Source: an uncultured Pseudorhodobacter sp.
Lineage (GTDB): Bacteria; Pseudomonadota; Alphaproteobacteria; Rhodobacterales; Rhodobacteraceae
Assembly: GCA_913062925.1 (NCBI GenBank)
Contig: CAJXWJ010000005.1
Coordinates: 1-64,000 of the forward strand
Direction of reading: 5' to 3'
DNA length: 64,000 bases
Of this stretch, positions 38,097 through 58,970 are shown one piece after another. The first letter of the stretch is position 1. Each line of letters begins with the position of its first letter. A program made the position numbers and the translations under genes. Under the pieces are notes generated by a model, which had not been told where the DNA came from, did no database searches, and was given only the letters and a program-made list of their open reading frames with translations.

Positions 38097-39182
38097 TCAG
38101 CCCTTGGCCGCACGATCGCTGCGGCTGATCCGCAAAACCGCGCCGGCAAGCCGCTCTAGCGGCAGTTCTTCGTCAACAGCGCCGATGATTTTCGCCTCTT
38201 TCGGCATGCCATAGACCACGCAACTCGCTTCATCCTGACCGAATGTATAGGCGTTCGCGGCGCGCATTTCCTTCAGACCGCGGGCGCCATCGTCGCCCAT
38301 GCCGGTCATGATCACCCCGATCGCATTGCGTCCGGCCACCCGCGCAACCGAGCGAAACAAGACATCAACCGAAGGCCGATGCCGCGAGACCGGGGGGCCG
38401 TCTTTAATATCAATCTGATAGGTCGCGCCGCTGCGCTGCACCAAGAGATGCTGGTTTCCAGGCGCAATCAAAGCATGGCCGCGCAACAGCCGGTCGCCGC
38501 GCTTGGCTTCCGAAACAGTAATCGCGCAGCTGGTGTTCAAACGTTCGGCAAAGGCGCGGGTGAAAGCTGCGGGCATGTGTTGCACCACGACAATGGCCGG
38601 CGAATCTGGCGGCATCGCCTCAAGAAAGATCCGCAGCGCCTCGGGCCCACCGGTTGAAATGCCGACGGCAACGATTTTTTCAGTGGTCTGTGTCATCGCT
38701 GTTGCATTGGCGGGCGGCGCAAGGATTACATCGGCACTGTGTTTGGATTCCACTTTATGCGGGCGGTGCGCGAAAACGCGGGCCTTACTTGCGGCCTTAA
38801 CCGTCTCAATAATGGTGCGGTGGCTGTCGTTTAGAAAGGATTTGACAGCCATTTGCGGCTTGCAAATCACATCCACCGCGCCCGCTGCCATGGCTTCAAT
38901 ATAGGTTGCTGATTTTTCCGCGACCAAAGACGAGCAAATCACCACCGGAATCGGATGTTGCGCCATCAGTTTACGCAGAAAGGTAAGCCCGTCCATCCGC
39001 GGCATTTCCACATCCAAAACAATGACATCGGGGCGTTCGTGCCGCATTTTCTCGGCCGCGATAAAGGGATCAACCGCGGCGGCCATCACCTCCAAATTCG
39101 GGTCTGAATTGATAATCTCGCTGAGGCATTGCCGCACGACGGCACTGTCATCGACGATCAGCACGCGGATTTTTTTCTGCAT
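38097..39182 (-). CDS. cheB: Protein-glutamate methylesterase CheB
   Basis: Removes methyl groups from, or deamidates, chemoreceptor glutamates; phosphorylation by CheA activates it. The receiver domain is residues 1-125, phospho-acceptor Asp57 in [13 protein letters not shown], and the C-terminal esterase has Ser in [11 protein letters not shown], His in [10 protein letters not shown] and Asp in [10 protein letters not shown]. The start is the ATG at 39182 (MQKKIR), 17 bases after the cheR stop; an ATG at 39209 overlapping cheR is possible. At 361 residues the length is normal. It is the last gene of the chemotaxis operon. Confidence 0.96.
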
Positions 39183-39198
39183 TCCTGCACCCTTGTTT

Positions 39199-40113
39199 TC
39201 ATTTAGCATTGCATGCCTTTCTGTAGACCGATGGCGCCACCTGTGTCAGATCCTCTGGTAGGTTCGAGATCGCCTCTGCATGGCCTGTGATGAGATACCC
39301 CCCAGGCCGAATGCGCCGCAAAACGTTCTGAATCGCGGCATCTTTTTCTTTTTGTTTAAAGTATATCAATACGTTGCGCATAAATACGACATCTGCTCTT
39401 TCGGAAAAACCCACCTCAAGATCGACAAGATTCGCCCATTTGAAGCGGGCCTTGCCGCGTAGGTCGGGGGTAACGCGAAACAGTGTGCCGCCTGCGCTGA
39501 TCTGACTCTCGGGTTTCGAACGCAAGATATAGGCGCGGCGCAAGTCTTCGCTGAGCCCCGACAGTTCTTCCAATGTGAAGACTGCATTCGCCGCTCGGGC
39601 CAGCACGCGACGCGAGACATCGGTGCCAAGCAGCGACCAGCGCAGCCTATCTGGAGTCGAAAGGCAGAGCTGGTGCAACACGATGCCCGCAGTCCAAAGC
39701 TCTGACCCGATGGAACAGGCCGCCGACCAGATCACCAGCGGCCATTCCTTTCCTGCGCCCAATTGCATCAGATTGGGCAGGCCGGTGGTTTTCAGAAAAT
39801 CGAAATGCGCCCGTTCCCGAAAAAAATCCGTGGTATGAGTGGCGAGCGATTCCACCAGAAATTGAGCCTCACTCGCACCGTGGATGCCGTTGAGCCGTGC
39901 AATATAGGCGTCGGTGTCGGTCAAACCCAGTTCTTTAAGCCGCCGGTTGACGCGTAGCCGCAGAAAACCGCTGTTGTTTGGATCGACATTGATCCCCGAA
40001 AGCCGTTTCACCGTGCCCACAATCTGCAAGGCATCCCGCGCAGCGATTGGCTGCTGCAAGGTTTGGCTTTGTGCCATCATCTCTTGGATCGTGCGGTTTT
40101 CTTGGTTGCGCAT
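39199..40113 (-). CDS. cheR: Chemotaxis methyltransferase CheR
   Basis: Methylates chemoreceptor glutamates using S-adenosyl methionine. A 304-residue protein with an N-terminal helical domain ([27 protein letters not shown]) and a Rossmann SAM domain ([31 protein letters not shown]). [14 protein letters not shown] is the usual active-site loop (R-N-V-L-I-Y-F). The ATG at 40113 lies three bases after the cheW stop. It adapts the receptor encoded just upstream in the operon. Confidence 0.96.
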
Positions 40114-40116
40114 GGT

Positions 40117-40662
40117 TTAGTCGAAATCAAAGGGACCGCGCAGATCATTGGCCAGAAGCCTGCTGAAAGAGAGGACATAAACCAAGCGGCCATCAATCCG
40201 CGCGACGCCGTCCAAGATAGAGGCGTCCCAGGCGCCTAGCGCCGCAGGTGCTGGTTCGATTCGGTCCGCGGCAATATCGGTGACATTACGCACCTTGTCT
40301 GCGATGATCCCGATCGGGGCTTTGCTGCTGGATCCGATTTCCAGAACAATGATCCGCCGATGGGGCGAGGCAGGATCCGCGGCCAGCCCCAGTTTGTTTT
40401 GCAGGTCAAGCACCGCAAGGCCTTCGCCGCGCACATCAATCATTCCCAAAAGCTCCATCCCCGCATTTGGGAGGGGAGCCACGGGCTGCATATCCAAAAT
40501 CTCGCGAACATCGCAGACATCGGTGGCCAAGGTTTGATCGCCAATATCGAAGGTCACATAGGTTGTGATCGGTTCAGAAGCGGTCGATGCCGTGTCAGTT
40601 TGGTCGCCAAAGCCGCCGAAGGGGCTTGAGGTTTGTGCTGCGATGGAGGGAGCTGCGGTCAT
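40117..40662 (-). CDS. cheW: Chemotaxis coupling protein CheW (copy closest to cheR)
   Basis: Couples chemoreceptor and CheA. A CheW fold of 181 residues: ITTYVTFDIGDQTLATDVCDVREILDMQPVAPLPNAG, MIDVRGEGLAVLDLQNKLGL, and the C-terminal RLVYVLSFSRLL. An extra N-terminal tail of about 35 residues (Ser/Ala/Thr-rich) precedes it. The ATG at 40662 is chosen because the tail starts MTAAPSIAAQ; an earlier in-frame ATG is not supported. Two cheW genes flank the receptor gene, which may allow different array stoichiometry. Confidence 0.93.
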   Translation of the reverse strand: MTAAPSIAAQTSSPFGGFGDQTDTASTASEPITTYVTFDIGDQTLATDVCDVREILDMQPVAPLPNAGMELLGMIDVRGEGLAVLDLQNKLGLAADPASPHRRIIVLEIGSSSKAPIGIIADKVRNVTDIAADRIEPAPAALGAWDASILDGVARIDGRLVYVLSFSRLLANDLRGPFDFD

Positions 40663-40727
40663 GAAACACTCGTGAAGATCAGGGATTAGGGGGCAGGGGG
40701 GCCGTAATCGGCACCCCCGCGCATCGA

Positions 40728-42941
40728 TCAATAGCGTTCAAACTCTTGATCTGACACCGACTCCGGGCCGAGGTCGAGCAGGATGCCATTGGTCCCGTTG
40801 CGCTTTCCACCTGCGCTTGAAGCCACGACGCTTGTGGCGACTTCAGTCTCGCGGCGTTTGTTAGGACCCGCGGCGCCGCCAGAGCGTGCCGATTTGTTTG
40901 CCGCAGATTGACGCTTGGCTGCTTTTGCACCAGAGGCTTGCGCGTCTTTGCCAAGCTCGAAAAAGCCAATCACCTCATGCAGCGATTCTGATTGCGCTGC
41001 GAGTTCCTCGGAAACCGAGGCCGCCTCGGTGGCTGAGGCCGCATTGCTTTGGATGACAGAGTCGAGTTGCCGGATTGCTTGGTTGATCTGATCGGCGCCG
41101 GTGTTCTGCTCGCGCATGGCGGTCGAGATTTCCTGCACCAGATCGGCGGTGCGCTGGATGTTTGGCACCAAAACTTGCAGCATCTCGCCAGCTTTTTGGC
41201 TGACTTCGACGGTTTTGCCCGAGAGCGCATTGATTTCGCCTGCCGCCTGTTGGCTGCGTTCGGCCAGTTTGCGCACCTCGGAGGCGACGACAGCAAAGCC
41301 CTTGCCGTGTTGGCCTGCGCGTGCGGCCTCGACCGCAGCGTTCAGCGCCAAAAGGTCAGTTTGGCGTGCGATTTCTTGAATAATCGTGATCTTATCTGCA
41401 ATCGTCTTCATCGCCTTCATTGCCTCGTCGACCGCTTTGCCGCTGTCTATGGCCTGCTGCGCCGATTGGGTGGCGATTTTTTCGGTCTGGGCCGCATTAT
41501 CCGCACTTTGACGGATATTGGCGGTCATTTCTTCCATCGCACTCGAGGCCTGCTCGGCGGCGGCAGCCTGTTCGGTGGCCCCCGAGGAGAGTTGCTCGGC
41601 AGTAGCCGACATCGCATGGGCACCGGTGGCGACAGAATTCGAGGTCGAGCTCATATCGGAGACGACTTCGCGCAATTTGACCAGCATCACCTCTAGCGCG
41701 ATGCCCAGCGAATCCTGATCCGAGCGCCGCTCGGTCTGCACCGTCAAATCGCCGGCACTGATCCGTTCGGCGACAGTGGTTATTTTGCGCAGCACCTCGC
41801 TCATATTGCCCATGGCCCCCAGAAGATCGGCGATCTCGTCATGGCTGTTTGTGGATGTATCCGCAGACAGATCGCCCAGAGCCACTTTGCGCGCAACATC
41901 CACCGCGCGCGACAGGCCACGGCTGATCCCAAGCGAGACCCAGAGCGCGCCAGTAATGCCGATTGCCATCGCAAGGCCCAGTATCGTGAAGAACAACATG
42001 CGTTTTGAGGCGAAATCTGCATCGGCCAAGTCGCGAGCCTTGTGCAAATCGGTCAAGCTGGTCAGGCTTAACTCGTCCGTTGCCGTTTGCAGCGTCGACA
42101 GGGTATCGCCAAGCGCGCCTTCCAGCAGATCTTTTGCGCGGAATTCGGTGTTCTGGTGTGAGAGTTCCAGTGATTTCTGAGTGCGCTCGTCTATTGCAGC
42201 CAGAGTCTGCTGCAAGGTTGCAAATTCTTGTGCGCTGCCAGAGCCGATCATCTTGCTCATTGTGTTCAAGCTCGTCTTGATGCGGGCCAGCTGCTCTTGC
42301 GCCTTGCCGATGTGCTGAGGAATGACCCCATCGATTGGTTCAAGGATGGCATCCTTTTCCGAGATCAGGGCCAGACCCAATGCGACATTGATCGTGTCCA
42401 ATTCTGCTTGCAGTCCTTCGGGCATGACCATGGCATTGGCGCGGGCCTTGTCGATCAGGGCTGTCATATCCTTGTCCAATTGCATCAATTGCGCTGGCAG
42501 AATATCCATCGAAAGTTGACGGGCCTGCTCCAATGTACCCTGCCGCGACAGATCGAGTACCGTGGCTTCGAACTCCTCCATCCGCGCAAGATTTGCCTTG
42601 ATAGCCTCAACTTTCGGGATAGTCTCTTCCTTCGCCAGTTTCGAGATCGCCAGAAGCGATTGCTCTGTTTCAGCGTTTAGGGTTCTGATCTGGTCTTCGT
42701 AGGTCTTCTTCTCGACGCCATTTGTTGCCGCAAGATGCTTTGCCAAAAGCACATCAATTTGTAACATATTGCGCTGGGCCTTGCCAGATTGCAGCACCTG
42801 TTCGGCGCGGTTGTTGACCAGATAGGCGATGGTGTCATTGGAAGCTGACATCGCGTTTACAGCCAGCCAAGAGAGGCCCGTCAGCATGGCGAGGACCACG
42901 AAAAATGTGGCTCCAAGTTTGGTTTTGATACTTAGACGCAT
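40728..42941 (-). CDS. Methyl-accepting chemotaxis protein with large periplasmic domain
   Basis: A transmembrane chemoreceptor of 737 residues. TM1 is about residues 10-30, the periplasmic domain about 31-314, and TM2 about 315-338. The all-helical sensor of about 285 residues resembles the helical bimodular (HBM) type, longer than 4HB. HAMP-type linkers follow, then the cytoplasmic hairpin with tip [20 protein letters not shown]. Gln/Glu/Ala-rich flanks are the usual methylation helices. The C-terminus ends [10 protein letters not shown] and lacks a clear NWEEF-type pentapeptide. It is in the middle of the che operon, between the two cheW genes. Confidence 0.95.
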
Positions 42942-42971: not shown

Positions 42972-43484
42972 TCACGCATTGGCCGTGGGCGAGGGTTCGG
43001 GTTGGAAGAGGGTGCTGGCGTTCAACAAGACAACCAGACCTTTGGTGTGGCGCAGGACACCCAGCACATAGGTGTCGGGCCAGGGCGCTCCGAGTTTGGG
43101 CACCGGTTCCAGTTTGCCAAGCTCAACGTCGATGACCTCTTCCACCGCATCCGCCAAAAAGGCGAGGCGGGTTGGCGTGTCCTTGATCGTGGTCTCAACA
43201 ACGACAATACGCGCAGTGGCGCCCGGTGCGGCGGGCGCCATCCGCAGGCGGTGGCGCAGGTCAAGCAGCGGCACCACGGCGCCGCGCACATTGATCAGAC
43301 CGGGCGCGAAGGCCGAGGCATTGGGAACGCGTGTGATCTGGATCGGATCTATGATCTCATTCACCATGGGCACGGGAAGGCCAAAGGCCTCTCCCGAGAG
43401 CCGCATGATAAGCGCCATCTCGGCGGTTTCGCTGGTCGCGGCGATCTGTGGGCTTTGTGTGCGGGACGTCTGTTGCATATCCAT
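42972..43484 (-). CDS. cheW: Chemotaxis coupling protein CheW (copy next to cheA)
   Basis: A second CheW of 170 residues: ALIMRLSGEAFGLPVPMVNEIIDPIQITRVPNAS, GLINVRGAVVPLLDLRHRL, and GLVVLLNASTLF. It differs clearly from the first CheW, so the two are not a recent duplication. The ATG at 43484 (MDMQQTSRT) has AAGGGCGA upstream and lies 13 bases after the cheA stop. Confidence 0.93.
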   Translation of the reverse strand: MDMQQTSRTQSPQIAATSETAEMALIMRLSGEAFGLPVPMVNEIIDPIQITRVPNASAFAPGLINVRGAVVPLLDLRHRLRMAPAAPGATARIVVVETTIKDTPTRLAFLADAVEEVIDVELGKLEPVPKLGAPWPDTYVLGVLRHTKGLVVLLNASTLFQPEPSPTANA

Positions 43485-43497
43485 CGGGTCGCCCTTT

Positions 43498-45450
43498 TTA
43501 TGCGGCATTGCGCAGATGCTCTTGTGCGGCCCAAGCCCGCCGCGCCAAGAGCCCAACATCGGCGATCAGCGCAACCGAGCCATTGCCCAAGATGGTCGCA
43601 CCGGCAAACCCTTCGAGCCCGCCGTGATAGGGGCCAAGTGATTTGATAACGGTTTGATTTTGTCCAAGAATATCGTCAACCACCAAACCAACCCGCACAC
43701 CTTCCGCCTTCACGATCACCACGCGGCGGCGTTGTTCATGGCCGGGCAGGTCGTCGAAAGCGTCAATCAGATCAATGAAGGGCACCAGATGTTCGCGGAT
43801 TTGCAGCATGGTTCGACCGCTTTCTCGACCGTGTTCGATACTGTCGAATTCGACACATTCCTCGACCGAGGCGAGCGGGATGACGTAGCTTGCCGCGCCC
43901 ACCCGCACCAAAAGCCCGTCGATGATGGCCAGCGTCAACGGCAGGCGTAGGGTTACGCGGGTGCCTTGGCCGGGGTAGGATTTGACGTCAACCGAGCCGC
44001 GTAGGGCAGAAACCGTGGTCAGGACAGCGTCCATGCCCACACCGCGTCCCGAAACCGAAGACACTGTGGCAGCGGTGGAAAAGCCGGGTGCGAAGATAAG
44101 TTTGTGAAGTTCGGCGGTGCTGATCTCGTCTTCGGTGCTGATCAAACCGCGGTCAACCGCCTTCTTGCGGATGGCTTCAGCATCAAGACCCTTGCCGTCA
44201 TCCTCGATCGAAATCAAAATCTCGCCGGCCTCTTGGCGCGCTGAAAGCCTGAGGCGCCCCTTGGCGGGTTTGCCGCTGGCGCTGCGCTCTTGGGGGAGTT
44301 CGATGCCATGGTCGATCGAATTGCGGATCATATGCACCAGCGGCTCGCTCAGTCGATCCAACACATTCTTGTCGATTTCGGTATCGCCGCCCTGCGTTTC
44401 CAGTTCTATCTCTTTGCCAAGTTCGGCGGATAAATCGCGGACAACGCGGCGAAATTTACCAAATACCATTTCGATCGGCAGCATGCGCACGGAAAGTGTT
44501 GCATCGCGCAGGCCGGTGACAAGGCGTTCCACCTCCTCGACCAAGCCTTCAAGTGCGGGCTCGTCGATGCTGTTGGAAATCTGACGCAGACGCGCCTGTG
44601 CTATTACCAATTCGCCCAATTGATCGAGGATTTCGTCAAGTTTGGCCGAGGAGACCCGCACACTGTCGCCTGCGGTGTCATGCTTTTGCGGGGGCGCTGC
44701 GACGGTTTCGGTTGGCTTGTCTTCGCGCTGATCGGGCTGAGGGCTGCCCGAGGCTTCGCCTTCAACCTCGTGAATGTCGAGATCTGCATCATCGGCAAAG
44801 ATGAACACGGCTTCAAGCGCCGAACGTGGCTGCGCCGTTGTCAGGGCCACCTGCCAGGCAAGATAGCTGACGGAGGGGTCAAAGCTGTCAAGCGGCGGGA
44901 CGTCCTCTGCATTGATCGTCACCACGGCCTGACCGAGCGCCACAAGCTCTTCGATCAGCCGATCTGGCCGCATGCCGTTTTGCAAAGCAGTCGCGGCAGG
45001 ACGAAAACTGATATGCCAAAGCCGTGTGGGGGCAACCAGCGGGGTCAGCGGCACACCATTGTCTAACGCGGCGTCCAGTTCGGTCAGGAGCGCCACGAGG
45101 GGCGCTGAGGTCACCAGCGCAGCGGTCTCGGGGCCATCACCACCGCAATCGAGCATCGCCATCATCTGATCGCGGGCCTTTAGCACCACATTGATCAGCT
45201 TTGGACTGATCGCCAGATCGCCGGATCTTACCCGGTCAAAGGCATCTTCGAAATGATGGATAAACCCTGCCATCAAGCGAAATCCGAACATCGCACCGCC
45301 ACCTTTGAGCGTATGCAGACTGCGAAAGACAGCATCGACGGTTTCGGGATCGGGGCGTTTTTCCAGATCCAGCAGGGCCTCTTCCAGCCCCTCGAGAATA
45401 TCGCGCGATTCCTGCACATAGGCAGTTACAGCTGGGCTAAGATCTACCAT
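43498..45450 (-). CDS. cheA: Chemotaxis histidine kinase CheA
   Basis: Kinase that phosphorylates CheY and CheB. A 650-residue protein: P1/Hpt domain with His46 in RSLHTLKGGGAMFGF, a short P2-like stretch, the P3 dimerisation helices (SSAKLDEILDQLGELVIAQARL), P4 ATP-binding domain with HMIRNSIDHGIE (N box), ISIEDDGKGLD (G1) and GRGVGMDAV (G2), and a P5 CheW-like domain at the end. The ATG at 45450 is three bases after the cheY stop, so translation is probably coupled. The single Hpt and complete kinase point to a conventional system. Confidence 0.96.
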   Translation of the reverse strand: MVDLSPAVTAYVQESRDILEGLEEALLDLEKRPDPETVDAVFRSLHTLKGGGAMFGFRLMAGFIHHFEDAFDRVRSGDLAISPKLINVVLKARDQMMAMLDCGGDGPETAALVTSAPLVALLTELDAALDNGVPLTPLVAPTRLWHISFRPAATALQNGMRPDRLIEELVALGQAVVTINAEDVPPLDSFDPSVSYLAWQVALTTAQPRSALEAVFIFADDADLDIHEVEGEASGSPQPDQREDKPTETVAAPPQKHDTAGDSVRVSSAKLDEILDQLGELVIAQARLRQISNSIDEPALEGLVEEVERLVTGLRDATLSVRMLPIEMVFGKFRRVVRDLSAELGKEIELETQGGDTEIDKNVLDRLSEPLVHMIRNSIDHGIELPQERSASGKPAKGRLRLSARQEAGEILISIEDDGKGLDAEAIRKKAVDRGLISTEDEISTAELHKLIFAPGFSTAATVSSVSGRGVGMDAVLTTVSALRGSVDVKSYPGQGTRVTLRLPLTLAIIDGLLVRVGAASYVIPLASVEECVEFDSIEHGRESGRTMLQIREHLVPFIDLIDAFDDLPGHEQRRRVVIVKAEGVRVGLVVDDILGQNQTVIKSLGPYHGGLEGFAGATILGNGSVALIADVGLLARRAWAAQEHLRNAA

Positions 45451-45453
45451 GGC

Positions 45454-45819
45454 TTAGCCCGCCAATTTCTTGGTGACAGCCAAAAGCATGTCGGCGTCAA
45501 AAGGTTTGTTCAGCCAGCCCGTTGCACCTGCGGCCTTGCCCTCTGCCTTCAGCTCGGCCTTGGTTTCGGTGGTCAGCATCACAATCGGCACGCCAATCCC
45601 CTTGGGGTCGCGCCGTGCGTTGCGAATAAAATCAATGCCATTCATCACCGGCATGTTCAGATCGACGATCACCAGCGCGACGGTTTCTGCCTGCAATTGG
45701 GTGATGCCCTCCGCCCCATTTGCCGCTTCGATCACTCGGTAGCCAGCCCCTCGCAGGGTCAGCCCGACCATGTCTCGGATCGCCTTGCTGTCGTCTATCG
45801 TCAAAATGGTTTTTGCCAT
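45454..45819 (-). CDS. cheY: Chemotaxis response regulator CheY
   Basis: A single-domain receiver of 121 residues. The acidic pair is ILTIDDSKAIRDM, phospho-Asp53 is in LVIVDLNMPVMNG, and Thr/Lys switch residues are in MLTTET and WLNKPFD. The start is the ATG at 45819 or the ATG just upstream at 45822 (MMAKT). As first strong gene before cheA it is probably the main output regulator, although whether it drives flagella or another motor cannot be read from this window. Confidence 0.95.
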   Translation of the reverse strand: MAKTILTIDDSKAIRDMVGLTLRGAGYRVIEAANGAEGITQLQAETVALVIVDLNMPVMNGIDFIRNARRDPKGIGVPIVMLTTETKAELKAEGKAAGATGWLNKPFDADMLLAVTKKLAG

Positions 45820-45841
45820 CACTGGGCCACCTTTTTAGAAA

Positions 45842-46090
45842 TTAAGTACGCAGGGCTGTGCCCAAAGCGCTTAAAGCCTTTGGACCAAAGCCGAGGAAGC
45901 AGCTCTCAGCCTCCAGACTGCGTTTGCAGGAAAGTGCGATTTGCAGCGCGAAAACATTTGGATTTTCCGCGTCAAATTCGATCTGAAGCGGCAGCCTTTC
46001 TGCAAGCCTGCGCGCAAAGCTCGCACAGGCCTCTTTTGCCTGCTGCGGCTCCAGATCCGCTGGAATATCTAAGGTCGGCTGGGGCGGCAA
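45842..46090 (-). CDS. Small STAS-like protein of the che operon
   Basis: An 82-residue protein that looks like a STAS-type anti-sigma-antagonist fold (LDIPADLEPQQAKEACASFARRL...LQIEFDAENPNVFALQIALSC...SLGxGP-like FLGFGPKALSAL). A TTG start at 46090 is supported by a GAGGAGGG ribosome site eight bases upstream; no ATG fits. The conserved phospho-Ser of true STAS antagonists is not evident. It is the first gene of the chemotaxis operon and is only about 20 bases before cheY. The function is unknown. Confidence 0.6.
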   Translation of the reverse strand: MPPQPTLDIPADLEPQQAKEACASFARRLAERLPLQIEFDAENPNVFALQIALSCKRSLEAESCFLGFGPKALSALGTALRT

Positions 46091-46313
46091 AATCTACCCT
46101 CCTCTTGGTCACAAACTCGGCTGTCTTTCCCAGATCTAGCCGCAGATTCTTCCCAATTGGTTAATCTGATCCCTCTGAATTCCCTGCATTTTCGCTAAAA
46201 TTTTTTAGAGTCCGCATTAACCTTCCATTCAAGAAATTCGGGCAGTTTGGGCGGAGGATATAAAAGGCTGATGCCTGCGGGGGCTTGTTTTTGCAGAACG
46301 GGTGGAATGAACA
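46091..46313. promoter_or_regulatory. Divergent control region of the che operon; near-match to a CtrA box
   Basis: Two hundred and twenty bases between the TTG-start STAS gene and the divergent helical protein gene. TTAA-N7-TTCA at 46217-46231 is one mismatch from the CtrA consensus TTAA-N7-TTAA; CtrA is a regulator of motility in Rhodobacterales. GGAGGATATAAAAGG at 46254-46268 is A/T- and purine-rich. No certain -35/-10 pair is visible. Confidence 0.3.
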
Positions 46314-47906
46314 GTGATGTGGCAAGACGAAGCCTTCCGCATGCAGTCAGCGGGCGTCGATGCGATGGCGGCGTTTTCGAACAGCATCTCGACGCTGTCT
46401 TCAGAGACAGAACAGCTGTCGCAACTCTGCCGCAGGATGCTGGAGCTGAATGCGGCTGATAGCGCTTTGGAAAGACTGCAAACTTTGGGCGGCGTTATCG
46501 CAGAGCTGTGTCAGTTTCTGGACCATTGGCTTGCCCGCACCGAGGCTGGCGAGGTCAGCGAAAACTCGATCAAAATACGCCGCGATCTGGTTGATTTTCA
46601 CAAGATTGGCGTCCAGTTTCGGGTCGTGGCCTCGCTGACTGCGATCAATGCCAGCGCCAGTACGACCGATATGCAGGGGTTTATCGAAGAGCTGCGCGCG
46701 GTGCCTGAGCAGATTCGCGAGGCCGTCGGCATGCTGCAATTTCGCATGGCCACGGTGGATGAGGCGGTCGATGCCGCCGTGGTCTCGGCGCGCGCAGGGT
46801 TGGGCGTGATGGAGCAGGCGCGCGACACACTCGCCGCGCATGAGCGGGCATCGAAAGCGACCTTTCGTCAGATTGTACAGTCGCGCCATGCGCTGGAGGA
46901 GATCGGAAACCGCTTTCTAAACCAAAGTCAGGAGCAAACCAAAGCTCTGGTGCGCGGCTTTCAATACTCTGATTTCTTTGCCCAATGGCTGGATCATATC
47001 GCCCGGATGCTGGCCTTTGAGGCAGAGCTTGGCCCTGCGGTGCGCCTGTTGGCCGCGCGCCAGCTTGAGGCTTTGGCGCAGCAAGGCGAGGAGACGGTGC
47101 ACGAGATTTTATCGGCACTTCAGCAGCAGTCGGCCAATATGGGGCAGTTTACCAGGGATTTTGCCGCCCAAAGCCAGATGGGGTCGCAGGGAAATGCCGC
47201 GCTGCAAAACCTATTTGCCGCGATCCTGACTTCGCGGGAGCAGGCGCTGCCGGGGATTTCAACTGCTGTGACCTCTTCGCGCTTGGTACTTGCAGAAATC
47301 AGCCAGTGTAATCATAGCTTTGAGGCATTGGTTGGCCTGAGCGGTGTGATGGATCTTGCCGCGATCAATGCGCGTGTGCGGGCGGCCCGCGAAGAAAAAG
47401 CCCGCGCCGCGATGGCGTTTTTGTCTGGTGCGGTGATGGAGGGCGCGCGCGCCTGTCGAGATCTGCTGCGGCAATCCTCTGCGGCACTGACCAAGGTTGC
47501 CGAGGTGCAAGACGTCGCCATGTTGGATCGGTTGGTCGATTGCGTCGAACGGTTCGGCGCCGCCTTTGATCTGTGCCAGACCGAGTTGACCCAAAGTGAA
47601 GCGCGCGGTCAAAGCCTTGCGGGCACGCTAGAGGCTGTCTCTGCTTTGATCGGCCATTTGCAGGTGATGGTGAAAGAGTGCCAGCAAACTGCGCAAAATC
47701 TGACGCAAATTGTACAAGAGTTGCGGGCCTTTGGCAGCCGCCTTGCTGCGGGGATCGCCACTCCGGTCAGCTGGCCGGACATGCAAGCCATCTATGACAG
47801 CTACACCATTCAAGCCGAACGTGACACCCACGACCTACTGCTGGGGCGGCCGCTGTCGGTGCCAGCTCCGGCTAAGCTGCCGGAATTGGACGATATTTTT
47901 TTCTAA
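46314..47906 (+). CDS. All-helical soluble protein, MCP- and CheZ-like features, beside che operon
   Basis: An unrecognised 530-residue protein, predicted almost wholly alpha-helical with no membrane segment or signal peptide. Residues 216-224 read FQYSDFFAQ: Asp220 and Gln224 in the D...Q spacing used by CheZ-type phosphatases, with FQ before and HI after. Residues 347-360 (DLAAINARVRAARE) copy the MCP tip layout, and 103-116 (RVVASLTAINASAS) a weaker mirrored version. The C-terminus LPELDDIFF resembles the CheY-binding tail of CheZ. GTG at 46314 or ATG at 46317 follows GGTGGAATG. It diverges from the che operon. A phosphatase or soluble signalling role is inference. Confidence 0.55.
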   Translation: MMWQDEAFRMQSAGVDAMAAFSNSISTLSSETEQLSQLCRRMLELNAADSALERLQTLGGVIAELCQFLDHWLARTEAGEVSENSIKIRRDLVDFHKIGVQFRVVASLTAINASASTTDMQGFIEELRAVPEQIREAVGMLQFRMATVDEAVDAAVVSARAGLGVMEQARDTLAAHERASKATFRQIVQSRHALEEIGNRFLNQSQEQTKALVRGFQYSDFFAQWLDHIARMLAFEAELGPAVRLLAARQLEALAQQGEETVHEILSALQQQSANMGQFTRDFAAQSQMGSQGNAALQNLFAAILTSREQALPGISTAVTSSRLVLAEISQCNHSFEALVGLSGVMDLAAINARVRAAREEKARAAMAFLSGAVMEGARACRDLLRQSSAALTKVAEVQDVAMLDRLVDCVERFGAAFDLCQTELTQSEARGQSLAGTLEAVSALIGHLQVMVKECQQTAQNLTQIVQELRAFGSRLAAGIATPVSWPDMQAIYDSYTIQAERDTHDLLLGRPLSVPAPAKLPELDDIFF

Positions 47907-55049: not shown

Positions 55050-55541
55050 CTAGAAAAGCGGCAAGACTAGGGCCAAAAGATAGAAGATAAGTGTCGCCGA
55101 AAGCGTGGTGCCAAAGGGAAAGCCCGGATGGGTCCAGCTTTTCCAATCGGGGGTTGCCTTGCGAAACGGCGGGATGGCCTTGAGCAGGCGGTGGGCGGCA
55201 AAAGCGCCAAGCGAGCAGGCAACATAGATCATCGACAGTCGCGCCAGATCGGCATGGATAAAGGCGGGTGCCATGGCTGCGGCAAATTTCGCATCGCCGC
55301 CGCCGATCAGCCCGGCTGCATTCATCACAAAAGTCACCACCAGCACCGCAGCGCCAAGGCCAAGCCCCAGCGCCCAAAGCTTGAACGGCACCACCAGCAG
55401 CCCGACCAGCAGCCAGACTGCCAGCATCACCAGCGAGGCTTGATTGGGGATGCGCATAAATTTCAGGTCGCTGAACGAGACCCAAAAGCCGATGAAAAGC
55501 GCAAAGGGCAGCAGGGCTGCGGCGGCAAGTGGGCTGATCAT
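55050..55541 (-). CDS. cpaA: Prepilin peptidase, TadV/CpaA type
   Basis: Cleaves the leader of the Flp pilin at the membrane. A short A24 aspartate peptidase of 163 residues with about five transmembrane helices. The catalytic aspartates are in FSDLKFMRIPN (about residue 25) and GGGDAKFAAAMA (about residue 83). It lacks the N-terminal methyltransferase domain of PilD, as is usual for TadV. The GGGAGG ribosome site lies over the end of the upstream TPR gene. It is the last clear pilus gene of the locus in this window. Confidence 0.9.
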   Translation of the reverse strand: MISPLAAAALLPFALFIGFWVSFSDLKFMRIPNQASLVMLAVWLLVGLLVVPFKLWALGLGLGAAVLVVTFVMNAAGLIGGGDAKFAAAMAPAFIHADLARLSMIYVACSLGAFAAHRLLKAIPPFRKATPDWKSWTHPGFPFGTTLSATLIFYLLALVLPLF

Positions 55542-55546
55542 CTGAA

Positions 55547-56395
55547 TTAGCCTCCCAAGGCGGTGAGACTGCGCTCGGCGGCCTCGAAATAGCTGGGGGC
55601 GGTATCGACGGCCGAGCGCAACAGGTCTTTGCCAACGCTGACATCGCCCTGTTTGACCGCAGCAAGACCGGCGGTATAAAGCAGCTGCGCGCGTTCTTGT
55701 TGGGTCATGTTGACCACGGGCATATCGTATTTATGTTGGCCCGCGCGGGCAAGGACGAGGTTGTTTTTCGCGGTGAACAGCTGCGGCTCATAGGTCAGGG
55801 CCTGCAAGAACAAGCGCTCGGCCCCGGCATTGTCGCCACGCGTCAGCTTGGAGAAGCCCCAGTTGTTATAGACGCCCGAGGGCCTTGTGGTCAGCCCCGC
55901 GGCGATTTCATAAAAGCTGTCGGCCTTCTTCCAGTTCTTTTTCGAATCCGCAACCATGGCTTCAAGGCGATAGCGCTCGAAGGTTTCAAAGGTGGGCGGC
56001 ACGCTGTTCAGGCTGGCCTCTGCTGCCGCCCAATTGTTGATGCGGATCTGGGCATCGGCAAGGTTGACGCGGTCTTCATTGCTGCCTTCGGGCGAGGCGA
56101 TGATCGTCGCCCAAACCGCAATCGCCTGATCGGCTTTGCCCGCGCGCACCAGCGATTTTGCCAAACCGCGTTTGAGGTCGATTCGGCTTGGGTTTTCGGC
56201 GGCGGCTTTGCTGAAATAGGCGACGGCCTCGGAGGGATCGCCAACGGTCAGCATGATCTCTGACAGGTTGGAGTCGTCGGTCAAATTCACCGAATGCAGG
56301 GCGGCTTTGGATTTTGCGTCGCTGTTTGCCCCGACACATCCGGCAAGCGCCAAGGCGCCGCACAGGCAGGGGGCAAGGAAGGGGATCTGGCGCAT
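55547..56395 (-). CDS. tadD: TadD-like TPR lipoprotein
   Basis: A 282-residue lipoprotein with a lipobox (GALALAGC) after a signal peptide, then about five TPR-like helical repeats (EAVAYFSKAAAENPSRIDLKRGLAKSLVRAGKADQAIAVW and NWGFSKLTRGDNAGAERLFLQALTYEP). It fits TadD, a pilus-assembly lipoprotein that stabilises the secretin complex. AAAGGACG precedes the ATG. It is between the second TPR gene and cpaA. Confidence 0.85.
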   Translation of the reverse strand: MRQIPFLAPCLCGALALAGCVGANSDAKSKAALHSVNLTDDSNLSEIMLTVGDPSEAVAYFSKAAAENPSRIDLKRGLAKSLVRAGKADQAIAVWATIIASPEGSNEDRVNLADAQIRINNWAAAEASLNSVPPTFETFERYRLEAMVADSKKNWKKADSFYEIAAGLTTRPSGVYNNWGFSKLTRGDNAGAERLFLQALTYEPQLFTAKNNLVLARAGQHKYDMPVVNMTQQERAQLLYTAGLAAVKQGDVSVGKDLLRSAVDTAPSYFEAAERSLTALGG

Positions 56396-56425
56396 TTTGC
56401 GTCCTTTGGCGTTGCTGCTCGGGTG

Positions 56426-57004
56426 TTATAATTGCGAGAGCAGGACGTAAGTACCTTGCCCTCGCCTAACGAGTTTCATCACGGGCTTTTTCAAATTGCC
56501 CGAAGTATAGACCTCGGCCTCGCTTTGGGCGATAGCACGCTTCAGATTTTCGCGGATCGAGTCTGTTTCGCCACTGTCGAGCGCGAAGGCGCGTTGAAAC
56601 AGCACCCTTGCCTCGCCGATCTGCCCCTGCTCCATCCGCACCACGCCCAGATTGTTCAGCGCGGGCACCAGAGTTTGATCGGCTTCGACGGCGCGCCGCA
56701 AGATCTGCTCGGCTTGACCCAGCCGACCCAGATGCAGATCAGCGGTGCCAATCGAGGCCAGCACATCTGCGCTCATGCCCTGTTCGGCGGCGGCGCGCAG
56801 ATAGGCGCGTAGCGCCAGGTCATATTCCCCCGCAGCCATCAGACGGTGGCCCACCAAAAGCCCATCGACCGCTTTGGCCCGCCCATTGGTGCCGTAGGGC
56901 GTGTTGCGCTCGACGTCCGAGGCCCCTAGGCCTTGGCTGCTTTGGCAGGCTGTCAGGGCCGAAAGCATCATCACGGCCCAAGCCAGTGCCTGTGGTGCGA
57001 TCAC
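56426..57004 (-). CDS. Second TPR lipoprotein of the Tad locus
   Basis: A 192-residue TPR protein with an N-terminal signal and lipobox-like segment (MMLSALTAC) and repeats DVLASIGTADLHLGRLGQAEQILRRAVEADQTLVPALNNLGVVRMEQGQIGEARVLF. The start is a GTG directly after the tadC TAA (57005), with a run of G bases from the tadC end as ribosome site; in-frame ATGs about 11 codons later are possible. Together with the next gene it gives the locus two TPR lipoproteins, one more than the usual single TadD. It is probably a periplasmic assembly factor. Confidence 0.78.
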   Translation of the reverse strand: MIAPQALAWAVMMLSALTACQSSQGLGASDVERNTPYGTNGRAKAVDGLLVGHRLMAAGEYDLALRAYLRAAAEQGMSADVLASIGTADLHLGRLGQAEQILRRAVEADQTLVPALNNLGVVRMEQGQIGEARVLFQRAFALDSGETDSIRENLKRAIAQSEAEVYTSGNLKKPVMKLVRRGQGTYVLLSQL

Positions 57005-57991
57005 TTAGCCCCCCCCGTTGAAACTCGCTGAAATACCTGCCACTGCGGGCCCGATCAGGATAATCAGCAGCGGCGGCAAGGTAAACAACATAGTGCCAAG
57101 GGTCAGTTTGGCGGGCAGTTTGTTGGCCAATTCTTCGGCGCGCATCACCCGCTTGTCCCGCATTTCGGCAGAATAGACCCGCAGCGCATCCGACATCGAG
57201 GTGCCGAAGGTGGCTGATTGGATGAGCGTGGTGACAAAAGACGAAATATCCGGAATCCCGACGCGATCCGACATGTCTTTCAGCACTTTGGCGCGTTCTT
57301 TGCCGGCCTTGACCTCTTGTGAGACCATGTCGAATTCATCGGCAAGGGCAGGATAGCCCGCGCGGCTTTCCTTGGCGATGCGATTGACCGATTGATCCAG
57401 AGATTGCCCCGCCTCGACACAGACCAGCATCAGATCCAACGCGTCAGGAAAGCCCGAGACGATTTCCTTTTCCCGTTCTTGCGCGCGTTTGGTGATCCAA
57501 TACATCGGCAGGTAATAGCCCGCAGCACCCGGAATCAGCGTGGTCATCACCATAGATTGCGTAGAGGGGGCGGCGTCGCCATTGCCAAGCAGTGTATAGA
57601 TCAGTCCCAGCAGCAAAAAGCTGACCCCCAGCACCATCTGCGCAAAATGGAAGGTGCGCACAGCGTTTTTGTTACGATAGCCTGCGCGCACCATTTTCAT
57701 CCGCGCCGCCGACATCTCTTCGGCGTTTTGCGGCTCGAGAAAGCTGGCGAATTTCTCTAGCTTATCAGCCTTGGTGCCCGCGCGCAGACTGGCGCGATCC
57801 AGCGCCAACGGCTTTTTATCGGCCGATTGCCGCAGCGCTTTGATCTTGTCAAAAGGCTCGACCGGCTTTTTCAACAACACCGGCAGCGAGCCTGCAATCA
57901 GCAGCACTGCCAGCCCCAAAAGTCCGATTACCGGCCCGATATCGCCAAACAAGGTGGTTAAGCTGTCGGAAACTGTGCCCAAGAACGTCAT
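57005..57991 (-). CDS. tadC: Tad pilus inner-membrane platform protein TadC
   Basis: A type II secretion F-domain protein of 328 residues. It has an N-terminal membrane helix (GPVIGLLGLAVLLIAGSLPVLL), two more after a cytosolic part, the F-domain (FPDALDLMLVCVEAGQSLDQSVNRIAKESR), and a C-terminal helix (LTLGTMLFTLPPLLIILIGPAVA). With TadB it forms the platform that pilins are fed through. The ATG at 57991 lies seven bases after the tadB stop. Confidence 0.94.
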   Translation of the reverse strand: MTFLGTVSDSLTTLFGDIGPVIGLLGLAVLLIAGSLPVLLKKPVEPFDKIKALRQSADKKPLALDRASLRAGTKADKLEKFASFLEPQNAEEMSAARMKMVRAGYRNKNAVRTFHFAQMVLGVSFLLLGLIYTLLGNGDAAPSTQSMVMTTLIPGAAGYYLPMYWITKRAQEREKEIVSGFPDALDLMLVCVEAGQSLDQSVNRIAKESRAGYPALADEFDMVSQEVKAGKERAKVLKDMSDRVGIPDISSFVTTLIQSATFGTSMSDALRVYSAEMRDKRVMRAEELANKLPAKLTLGTMLFTLPPLLIILIGPAVAGISASFNGGG

Positions 57992-57998
57992 AGCGGCC

Positions 57999-58970
57999 TC
58001 ATACTTTGATATCTACCATGATCCGCATGAAGATCATGTTGATCACCAAAAAGACCCCAACAGTGATCAGCGCCGGTATCCAATAGGGGCTGTCTTGCAC
58101 TGCATCGTAATAGTCGGGTTTCAGCATTTTAATGGTGACAACTGCCCCCAGCGGAAAGGCCGAAAGAAAGCCGCCAGACCATTTCGCCTCGGCTGTGATG
58201 GCTTTGACGCGGCGAAACAGTTTAAACCGCGCGCGGATTACCTTGGCCAGACCTTCCAGAATTTCTGCCAGATTGCCGCCGGCGGTCTGTTGGATGTTCA
58301 CCGCCACCGCCAGAAACCGCAGATCCTGGTTGTCCATCCGCTCGGCAAAGGCTTTGAGGCTTTCGGCAATATCGCGTCCATAGGCGGCCTCGTCGGCAAT
58401 CAGGCCAAATTCGGTGCCCAAAGGATCGGACACCTCTTTCGCGACAATGCCGATTGCAGAGGAAAACGGATGGCCGACGCGCAGCGAGCGCACCATCAGC
58501 TCGACCGCATCGGGCAGTTGCTCCTCCATCAAGGCGATGCGCTTTTTGGCTTTGCCATTAACCCAGAAATACACGCCGCCCACGCCAAGGCTGATCGCAA
58601 CCCCTGCACAGATTGGCGCCGAAGCCGAGGTGGCGATGCTAAAGCCAACAAAGCTGGCCGCACTGATGGCTGCCATAATCATCACCAATTGCAGAGGGGT
58701 AAAGGCAATATTGGCCTTTTGCGCCTTGGTCGCCAGCAATGAATACAGCGGGATGCCGCGCGAATTCATATGCTGGCTGATCTCTTTGCGCAGCTGTTCC
58801 AGCACCTGTGCGCGGTTGTTGTTGGATTTTTCCAGGAGCGCCAAGCGACGATTGACGCGGTTGTTTAGGTTGATGGAATTGCCAAAGACCGCAAGATAAA
58901 GCGCGCCCACCAGCATGGGCACGGCGGCAAAGATCAGAAGGTAGATCAGCGGAGCGGCTTCTAATGTCAT
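57999..58970 (-). CDS. tadB: Tad pilus inner-membrane platform protein TadB
   Basis: A type II secretion F-domain protein of 323 residues. Helices are at the N-terminus (LIYLLIFAAVPMLVGALYLAVF), at about 90-130, and at the C-terminus (WIPALITVGVFLVINMIFMRIMV). The F-domain segment is LPDAVELMVRSLRVGHPFSSAIGIVAKEVSDPLG. It pairs with TadC; the two genes are adjacent and lie just after the ATPase gene. Confidence 0.94.
   Translation of the reverse strand: MTLEAAPLIYLLIFAAVPMLVGALYLAVFGNSINLNNRVNRRLALLEKSNNNRAQVLEQLRKEISQHMNSRGIPLYSLLATKAQKANIAFTPLQLVMIMAAISAASFVGFSIATSASAPICAGVAISLGVGGVYFWVNGKAKKRIALMEEQLPDAVELMVRSLRVGHPFSSAIGIVAKEVSDPLGTEFGLIADEAAYGRDIAESLKAFAERMDNQDLRFLAVAVNIQQTAGGNLAEILEGLAKVIRARFKLFRRVKAITAEAKWSGGFLSAFPLGAVVTIKMLKPDYYDAVQDSPYWIPALITVGVFLVINMIFMRIMVDIKV

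Follow-up and report, generated by a model that had tools for sequence, protein, structure and literature searches.

CheZ (PF04344), a protein of about 200–250 amino acid residues encoded in che operons, carries a D-x-x-x-Q motif on one helix of an antiparallel helical hairpin, and its architecture includes a disordered linker and a short C-terminal tail (PMC7750401). In alphaproteobacterial CheZ proteins the motif reads FQDITGQRI, and the acidic-hydrophobic tails are of the type DIDALF or DIDDIL. The signalling domain of methyl-accepting chemotaxis proteins (MCPs; PF00015) is a long antiparallel hairpin with a tip. Natural soluble MCP signalling domains, in which two receptor hairpins are joined in one cytoplasmic chain, are found in Rhodospirillum centenum and others; the available part of that report (PMC4692393) gives no known function for them and mentions no phosphatase motif.

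The window, that is, the whole stretch of 64,000 nucleotides from an uncultured Pseudorhodobacter sp. analysed here, contains an open reading frame whose GTG start gives a protein of 530 amino acid residues, and whose adjacent ATG (46317) would give 529. A sequence-only reading of the window had placed FQYSDFFAQ at residues 216–224 and LPELDDIFF at the C-terminus; both were confirmed in the translation, with D220 and Q224 at the expected spacing. The features of the gene are as follows.

46314–47906, plus strand: gene of the 530-residue, all-helical MCP/CheZ-like protein (open reading frame; AlphaFold2 mean pLDDT 85, pTM 0.62)
46617–46682, plus strand: tip of the first receptor-like hairpin, residues 102–123, FRVVASLTAINASASTTDMQGF (hhalign of hairpin 1 against hairpin 2; AlphaFold2 turn at 113–118)
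46962–46985, plus strand: Q-x-x-D-x-x-x-Q motif QYSDFFAQ, residues 217–224, candidate CheZ-type active site with D220 and Q224 (invariant in 47/47 members; polar helix face)
47352–47393, plus strand: degenerate receptor tip of the second hairpin, residues 347–360, DLAAINARVRAARE, with N352 invariant (hhalign and PDB MCPs)
47802–47831, plus strand: second invariant motif YTIQAERDTH, residues 497–506 (Y..xxER..H; conservation in 47 members)
47877–47903, plus strand: acidic-hydrophobic C-terminal tail LPELDDIFF, residues 522–530, proposed CheY-binding peptide (conserved; similar to alphaproteobacterial CheZ tails)

The protein had been called soluble, and no membrane-like segment was found in it (maximum 19-residue Kyte–Doolittle value, 1.43); neither the Kyte–Doolittle scan nor Pfam revealed a membrane anchor or a sensor module. 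No named family was assigned by Pfam, NCBIfam or PHROGs. The Pfam models of the CheC, CheX and FliY families gave no match, the AlphaFold2 model being all-helical, and PF00015 was absent above the Pfam gathering score. A Kinesin_assoc hit in Pfam (21.8 bits against a cut-off of 29.5) was put down to coiled-coil noise. A literature search, for which most subscription journals were out of reach, returned no description of the family.

The gene was predicted to diverge from a che operon, and the gene order agreed with this: the 530-residue protein is encoded on the plus strand, and the genes listed below run along the minus strand from the small gene to cheB.

45842–46090, minus strand: first gene of the divergent operon, 82 residues, STAS-like by position only (no Pfam match)
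45454–45822, minus strand: cheY, the proposed substrate (PF00072, E 2e-24)
43498–45450, minus strand: cheA (Hpt, H-kinase_dim, HATPase_c and CheW domains)
42972–43559, minus strand: cheW (PF01584)
40728–42941, minus strand: mcp (4HB, HAMP and MCPsignal; Pfam domains)
40117–40731, minus strand: second cheW (PF01584)
39199–40113, minus strand: cheR (PF01739)
38097–39209, minus strand: cheB (PF01339 and PF00072)

The small gene was called STAS-like because a STAS-domain gene adjoins the response regulator in the Aeromonas operon. Pfam CheZ, CheC and CheX were absent from the ten neighbouring proteins scanned, as the first reading of the cluster had claimed. When aligned to E. coli CheY, the operon CheY was found to retain N59 and E89, which would fit a partner of the CheZ type. 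In the divergent intergenic region, the sequence TTAACCTTCCATTCA (46217–46231) lies one mismatch from a CtrA-type TTAA-N7-TTAA site; such sites occur in the window at chance level, and it was not taken as a signal. Tad-type pilus genes (prepilin peptidase, TadB-like, TadC-like) are located at 55050–58970, about 8 kb from the che cluster.

To place the scaffold among known folds, profile and structure comparisons were used. A single receptor-like region, residues 347–360, had been noticed in the protein. Its likeness to a receptor tip was upheld, and the count was corrected to two receptor-like hairpins. When the family profile was compared with PDB chains, the best matches were solved MCP signalling domains (E 3.7e-18), and the top eleven were all MCPs or related receptors. 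Hairpin 2 matched MCPs in hhalign with a probability of 96.6 (E 5.7e-10), residues 347–360 being aligned to the Tar tip, and its score of 73 against the receptor tip compared with at most 29 for shuffled and 29.5 for reversed sequences. Hairpins 1 and 2 matched each other (probability 96.3, score 56.5, shuffles at most 34.7), which indicates an internal duplication of hairpins. Pfam MCPsignal was weak in 5 of the 17 members scanned (best E 7e-5). The AlphaFold2 model was all helix, with hairpins formed by helices 80–113/118–233 and 242–359/361–478, and the two predicted hairpins are read as a single chain folded into the four-helix bundle of MCPs. Foldseek with the full model gave no match with E below 0.001 (best 3e-3, mostly unrelated helical bundles and toxins), as expected of long helices. 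A VIA-align superposition on the soluble chemoreceptor of Thermotoga (3g67; 212/212 residues, Z 10.3) fell within the helical background, and nothing specific was concluded from it. The window protein resembles an MCP signalling domain in its long antiparallel hairpins with a tip (LAAINARVRAAR), which are homologous by profile, but differs from MCPs in being soluble, in having a degenerate tip, no sensor or HAMP domain that could be found and two hairpins per chain, and in carrying the D..Q motif and a CheZ-like tail. It shares with the single-chain MCP domains (PMC4692393) the two joined hairpins; its own hairpins are degenerate and bear the D..Q motif and the tail.

The CheZ-like marks lie on this scaffold. 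D220 and Q224 are situated inside the AlphaFold2 helix 118–233, close to where the first descending helix ends. An exposed D..Q helix had been expected, and the sequence indicates one: the polar face lies opposite the hydrophobic moment, with Q217, D220, Q224 and H228 at 124–176 degrees from the hydrophobic face and the D220/Q224 face, which is probably exposed, at 124–164 degrees. The C-terminal tail was disordered in the AlphaFold2 model (pLDDT <50), and its LDDIFF sequence resembles the CheY-binding tail of alphaproteobacterial CheZ; it is a putative CheY-binding peptide. The resemblance to CheZ comprises the D-x-x-x-Q motif on a helix of an antiparallel hairpin, the gene's place at a che operon and the short tail after a disordered linker. 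Unlike CheZ, the protein is 530 residues long, consists of MCP-type hairpins with receptor-tip remnants, carries an extra Y..ER..H motif and has one D..Q per two-hairpin chain. The window protein did not match the Pfam CheZ model, CheZ was not among the families listed for 17 members, and no NCBIfam CheZ match was obtained. The hhalign comparison of the Rhodobacterales-branch profile with CheZ brought D and Q into register with a probability of 48, against 41 for the reversed control. A score of 35.0 was equalled by 0 of 120 shuffles, but the reversed control reached 33.9, and no direct CheZ homology is therefore claimed for this branch; homology is carried only via gammaproteobacterial relatives.

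The gene is not peculiar to this cluster; it belongs to a broad family. With the window protein as query, tblastn retrieved only few relatives (22–26% identity), and profile searches retrieved many more, in Rhodobacteraceae. Combined profile searches and a check of CheA loci gave at least 31 carriers among 295 sampled genomes, nearly all of different genera, a lower bound given that few candidates were scored per genome and that the CheA-locus check added four carriers missed earlier. PLSDB plasmids yielded nothing closely related to the window protein or to subfamily B. Conservation was analyzed in 47 non-redundant members with a mean pairwise identity of about 20%. Apart from Met1, the residues invariant in all 47 were Q217, D220, Q224, N352, Y497, E502 and R503. 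H506 was present in 44 and R225 in 46 members, the W of the window protein at the latter position being atypical. The last residue was F in 38 of the 47, against 2.7% F overall, and the tail consensus was LDDI[FL]F. The tree separated subfamily A, which includes the window protein (QFxDxxAQRLDH), from subfamily B (QxGDSTRQRLEH), many members of which show D-[SI]-T-x-Q-R-L. The Y..ER..H pattern (YTxxxERxxH) occurred in no non-family open reading frame across the loci examined. By these comparisons, the family is a fast-diverging one that bears no Pfam or NCBIfam name.

Linkage of the gene to cheY, cheB and cheA was then assessed. Co-occurrence with this operon had been proposed as a check, and the gene lies next door in 28 of 33 loci with closely related CheA (scores of 400 bits or more against the window CheA); three further loci are interrupted by a contig end, and the gene is found in another part of the assembly. 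With G091 left out of inspection, the sole inspected CheA locus without the gene was a second operon (G039:C62), in a genome that carries the gene at its first operon. More distant che clusters carried no family gene (0/6), including the second che cluster of the window genome (G000:C7). Che genes were present in the same stretch in 31 of 34 family-gene neighbourhoods; of the other three, two start where their contig starts, and the third is a contig of 8.5 kb. Among 15 named relatives (Pelagimonas, Marinibacterium, Chachezhania, Jannaschia, Phaeobacter, Pseudophaeobacter, Pseudotabrizicola, Pseudorhodobacter and other Rhodobacteraceae), 13 had a che operon at the locus, and the remaining two loci lie at contig limits. 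In subfamily A the usual arrangement is the divergent one of the window, with cheY as the neighbour; in subfamily B the gene usually comes right after cheB, and its start codon often overlaps the cheB stop codon. One genome (G089) has two complete che operon copies (L076, L077), each with its own family gene, and at several subfamily A loci a 393-residue cytoplasmic MCP gene (PAS-like by eye) lies on the other flank of the family gene (L004:147–1325, L012:3175–4353, L014:3185–4363).

CheZ itself was searched for in the carriers. No CheZ (Pfam) was found in the whole window genome, and cheZ above the Pfam cut-off was found in 0 of the 20 Rhodobacteraceae carrier genomes tested; among Alphaproteobacteria sampled by class, 29 of 86 had CheZ above this cut-off. 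Two carriers outside Rhodobacteraceae (G561, G569) have cheZ elsewhere. FliM was tried as a flagellum marker and discarded: it gave no match in the window genome or in any subfamily A carrier tested, yet FlhA was found in nearly all, and the FliM model of Pfam is probably too stringent for these carriers. The window genome has two flhA genes (G000:C9:45940–47898 and G000:C6:47535–49502), one scoring much higher, which suggests two flagellar systems. Four genomes with assemblies about 99% complete (G277, G117, G041 and G074; loci L083, L090, L094 and L091) have the che operon and the family gene with no FlhA, and their pathway may control something other than flagella.

A profile of the D..Q region alone led to relatives across Pseudomonadota, and members with the Y..ER..H motif reach other alphaproteobacterial families and genomes of other classes. 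Gammaproteobacterial-type members are about 370–430 residues long, are annotated 'methyl-accepting chemotaxis protein' (Aeromonas, Pseudomonas) and lie directly upstream of cheY. They have intact MCPsignal domains (Pfam, E 1e-26 to 1e-28), QF[QT]DxxxQ 115–116 residues after the tip asparagine in 8 of 8 cases and tails reading DDITFF or EVELF. In the hhalign comparison of these relatives with CheZ, D and Q were again in register, with a probability of 86 and E 5e-6, the reversed control giving a probability of 3; one of them, L199, showed a sub-threshold Pfam CheZ match (E 4e-5). In these relatives, CheZ-like and MCP-like marks are joined in one protein. Genes of the Aeromonas WP_268015531.1 type share with the window gene the motif (QFQDxxxQ about 115 residues behind the receptor tip), a DDVTFF-type tail and the adjacent cheY; unlike the window protein, they have one hairpin, a canonical tip that is intact and a complete match to Pfam MCPsignal, and they are not annotated as phosphatases. 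L199, L197, L201, L206 and L227 (NZ_CP102455.1 85054–86268), which carry QFQDxxxQ and CheZ-like tails, are probably mis-described as receptors. Proteins of 189–201 residues with QFYDxxxQRLxH and a DDIELF tail were also observed outside che operons (L198:1303–1869, L200:1318–1920); they could be free-standing CheZ-like phosphatases that serve other response regulators.

That CheZ-like and MCP-like marks meet in one soluble protein, a possible CheY phosphatase, as the sequence-only reading had suggested, is the best-supported reading of the profiles, the invariant D..Q, the tail, the linkage, the absence of cheZ from the carriers examined and the CheZ match of the gammaproteobacterial relatives. 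It is likely that the protein is a CheZ-type CheY-P phosphatase built on a degenerate single-chain receptor scaffold and serving the adjacent che operon. We infer that the two antiparallel receptor-type hairpins of one chain would pack into a rod of four helices comparable to an MCP dimer in a single chain. On the descending helix of the first hairpin, about 110 residues from the tip, D220 and Q224 would face outwards, Q224 to orient the water for its attack and D220 to keep the active site of CheY in place. The flexible LDDIFF tail would tether CheY via the surface used by the CheZ tail and the FliM N-terminus, and through its receptor-like tips the enzyme would be located within or next to the chemoreceptor array. 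Such a protein would have a CheZ-like function but fails the CheZ model, and its scaffold would be MCP-derived, yet it is no receptor by the usual tests.

The same marks could be explained in other ways. A platform that binds CheY-P, or an array component with no enzymatic activity, would use the D..Q face and the LDDIFF tail to hold CheY-P as a sink or localiser, with dephosphorylation occurring spontaneously or via CheA. The MCP-like tips and scaffold and the likeness of the tail to CheY-binding peptides would fit this role, for which both a sink and a CheA-based route have precedents. CheZ-less rhizobia use a CheY sink. R. sphaeroides uses a CheA3 phosphatase (PMC6829392). A mere binder, however, needs no strictly invariant Q and D at the exact catalytic spacing while almost all else is unconserved, and we consider a non-enzymatic platform unlikely. 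CheB has a receiver domain, and the subfamily B gene directly follows, and often overlaps, cheB, as would suit a protein that dephosphorylates or regulates chiefly CheB-P (in receptor adaptation) or another response regulator; but the neighbour is cheY in the subfamily of the window and in the gammaproteobacterial relatives, and the tail resembles CheY-binding tails, which leaves such a target improbable.

A cytoplasmic receptor that is degenerate or serves as a decoy, modulating the activity of CheA and having a purely structural D..Q helix, would agree with the homology of the second hairpin to MCP signalling domains and with the natural soluble single-chain MCP domains (PMC4692393). The tips, however, are degenerate, N352 being their sole invariant position, while the D..Q motif and the tail are kept and D and Q point to the polar side of their helix, away from the core; such a receptor has, in our view, only a slim chance of being correct. 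Spurious profile matches are common for long helical proteins, and the reversed control against CheZ was nearly as high for the Rhodobacterales branch, but motif invariance, operon linkage and MCP matches far above the shuffled controls make a chance resemblance in a coiled-coil protein extremely improbable.

With a CheZ-type phosphatase taken as the preferred reading, a broader and more doubtful proposal may be put forward tentatively: CheZ-type catalysis would be a widespread add-on to chemoreceptor hairpins, in a Pseudomonadota-wide family whose CheY-P phosphatase site is fixed 115 residues behind the tip and whose members go unnamed or by the label 'methyl-accepting chemotaxis protein'. 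Signal termination would then take place inside the array, perhaps under the control of receptor conformation; CheZ may have arisen from, or share ancestry with, such a hairpin, and the Rhodobacterales scaffold would have become a single-chain pseudo-dimer. For the Rhodobacteraceae carriers without a recognisable CheZ, the 530-residue protein provides a specific candidate for the CheY-P off-switch, with its residues named. An evolutionary connection of CheZ with chemoreceptor hairpins is suggested, and many genes annotated as receptors beside cheY may be phosphatases, which, if true, would change pathway models and the automatic annotation of chemosensory genes.
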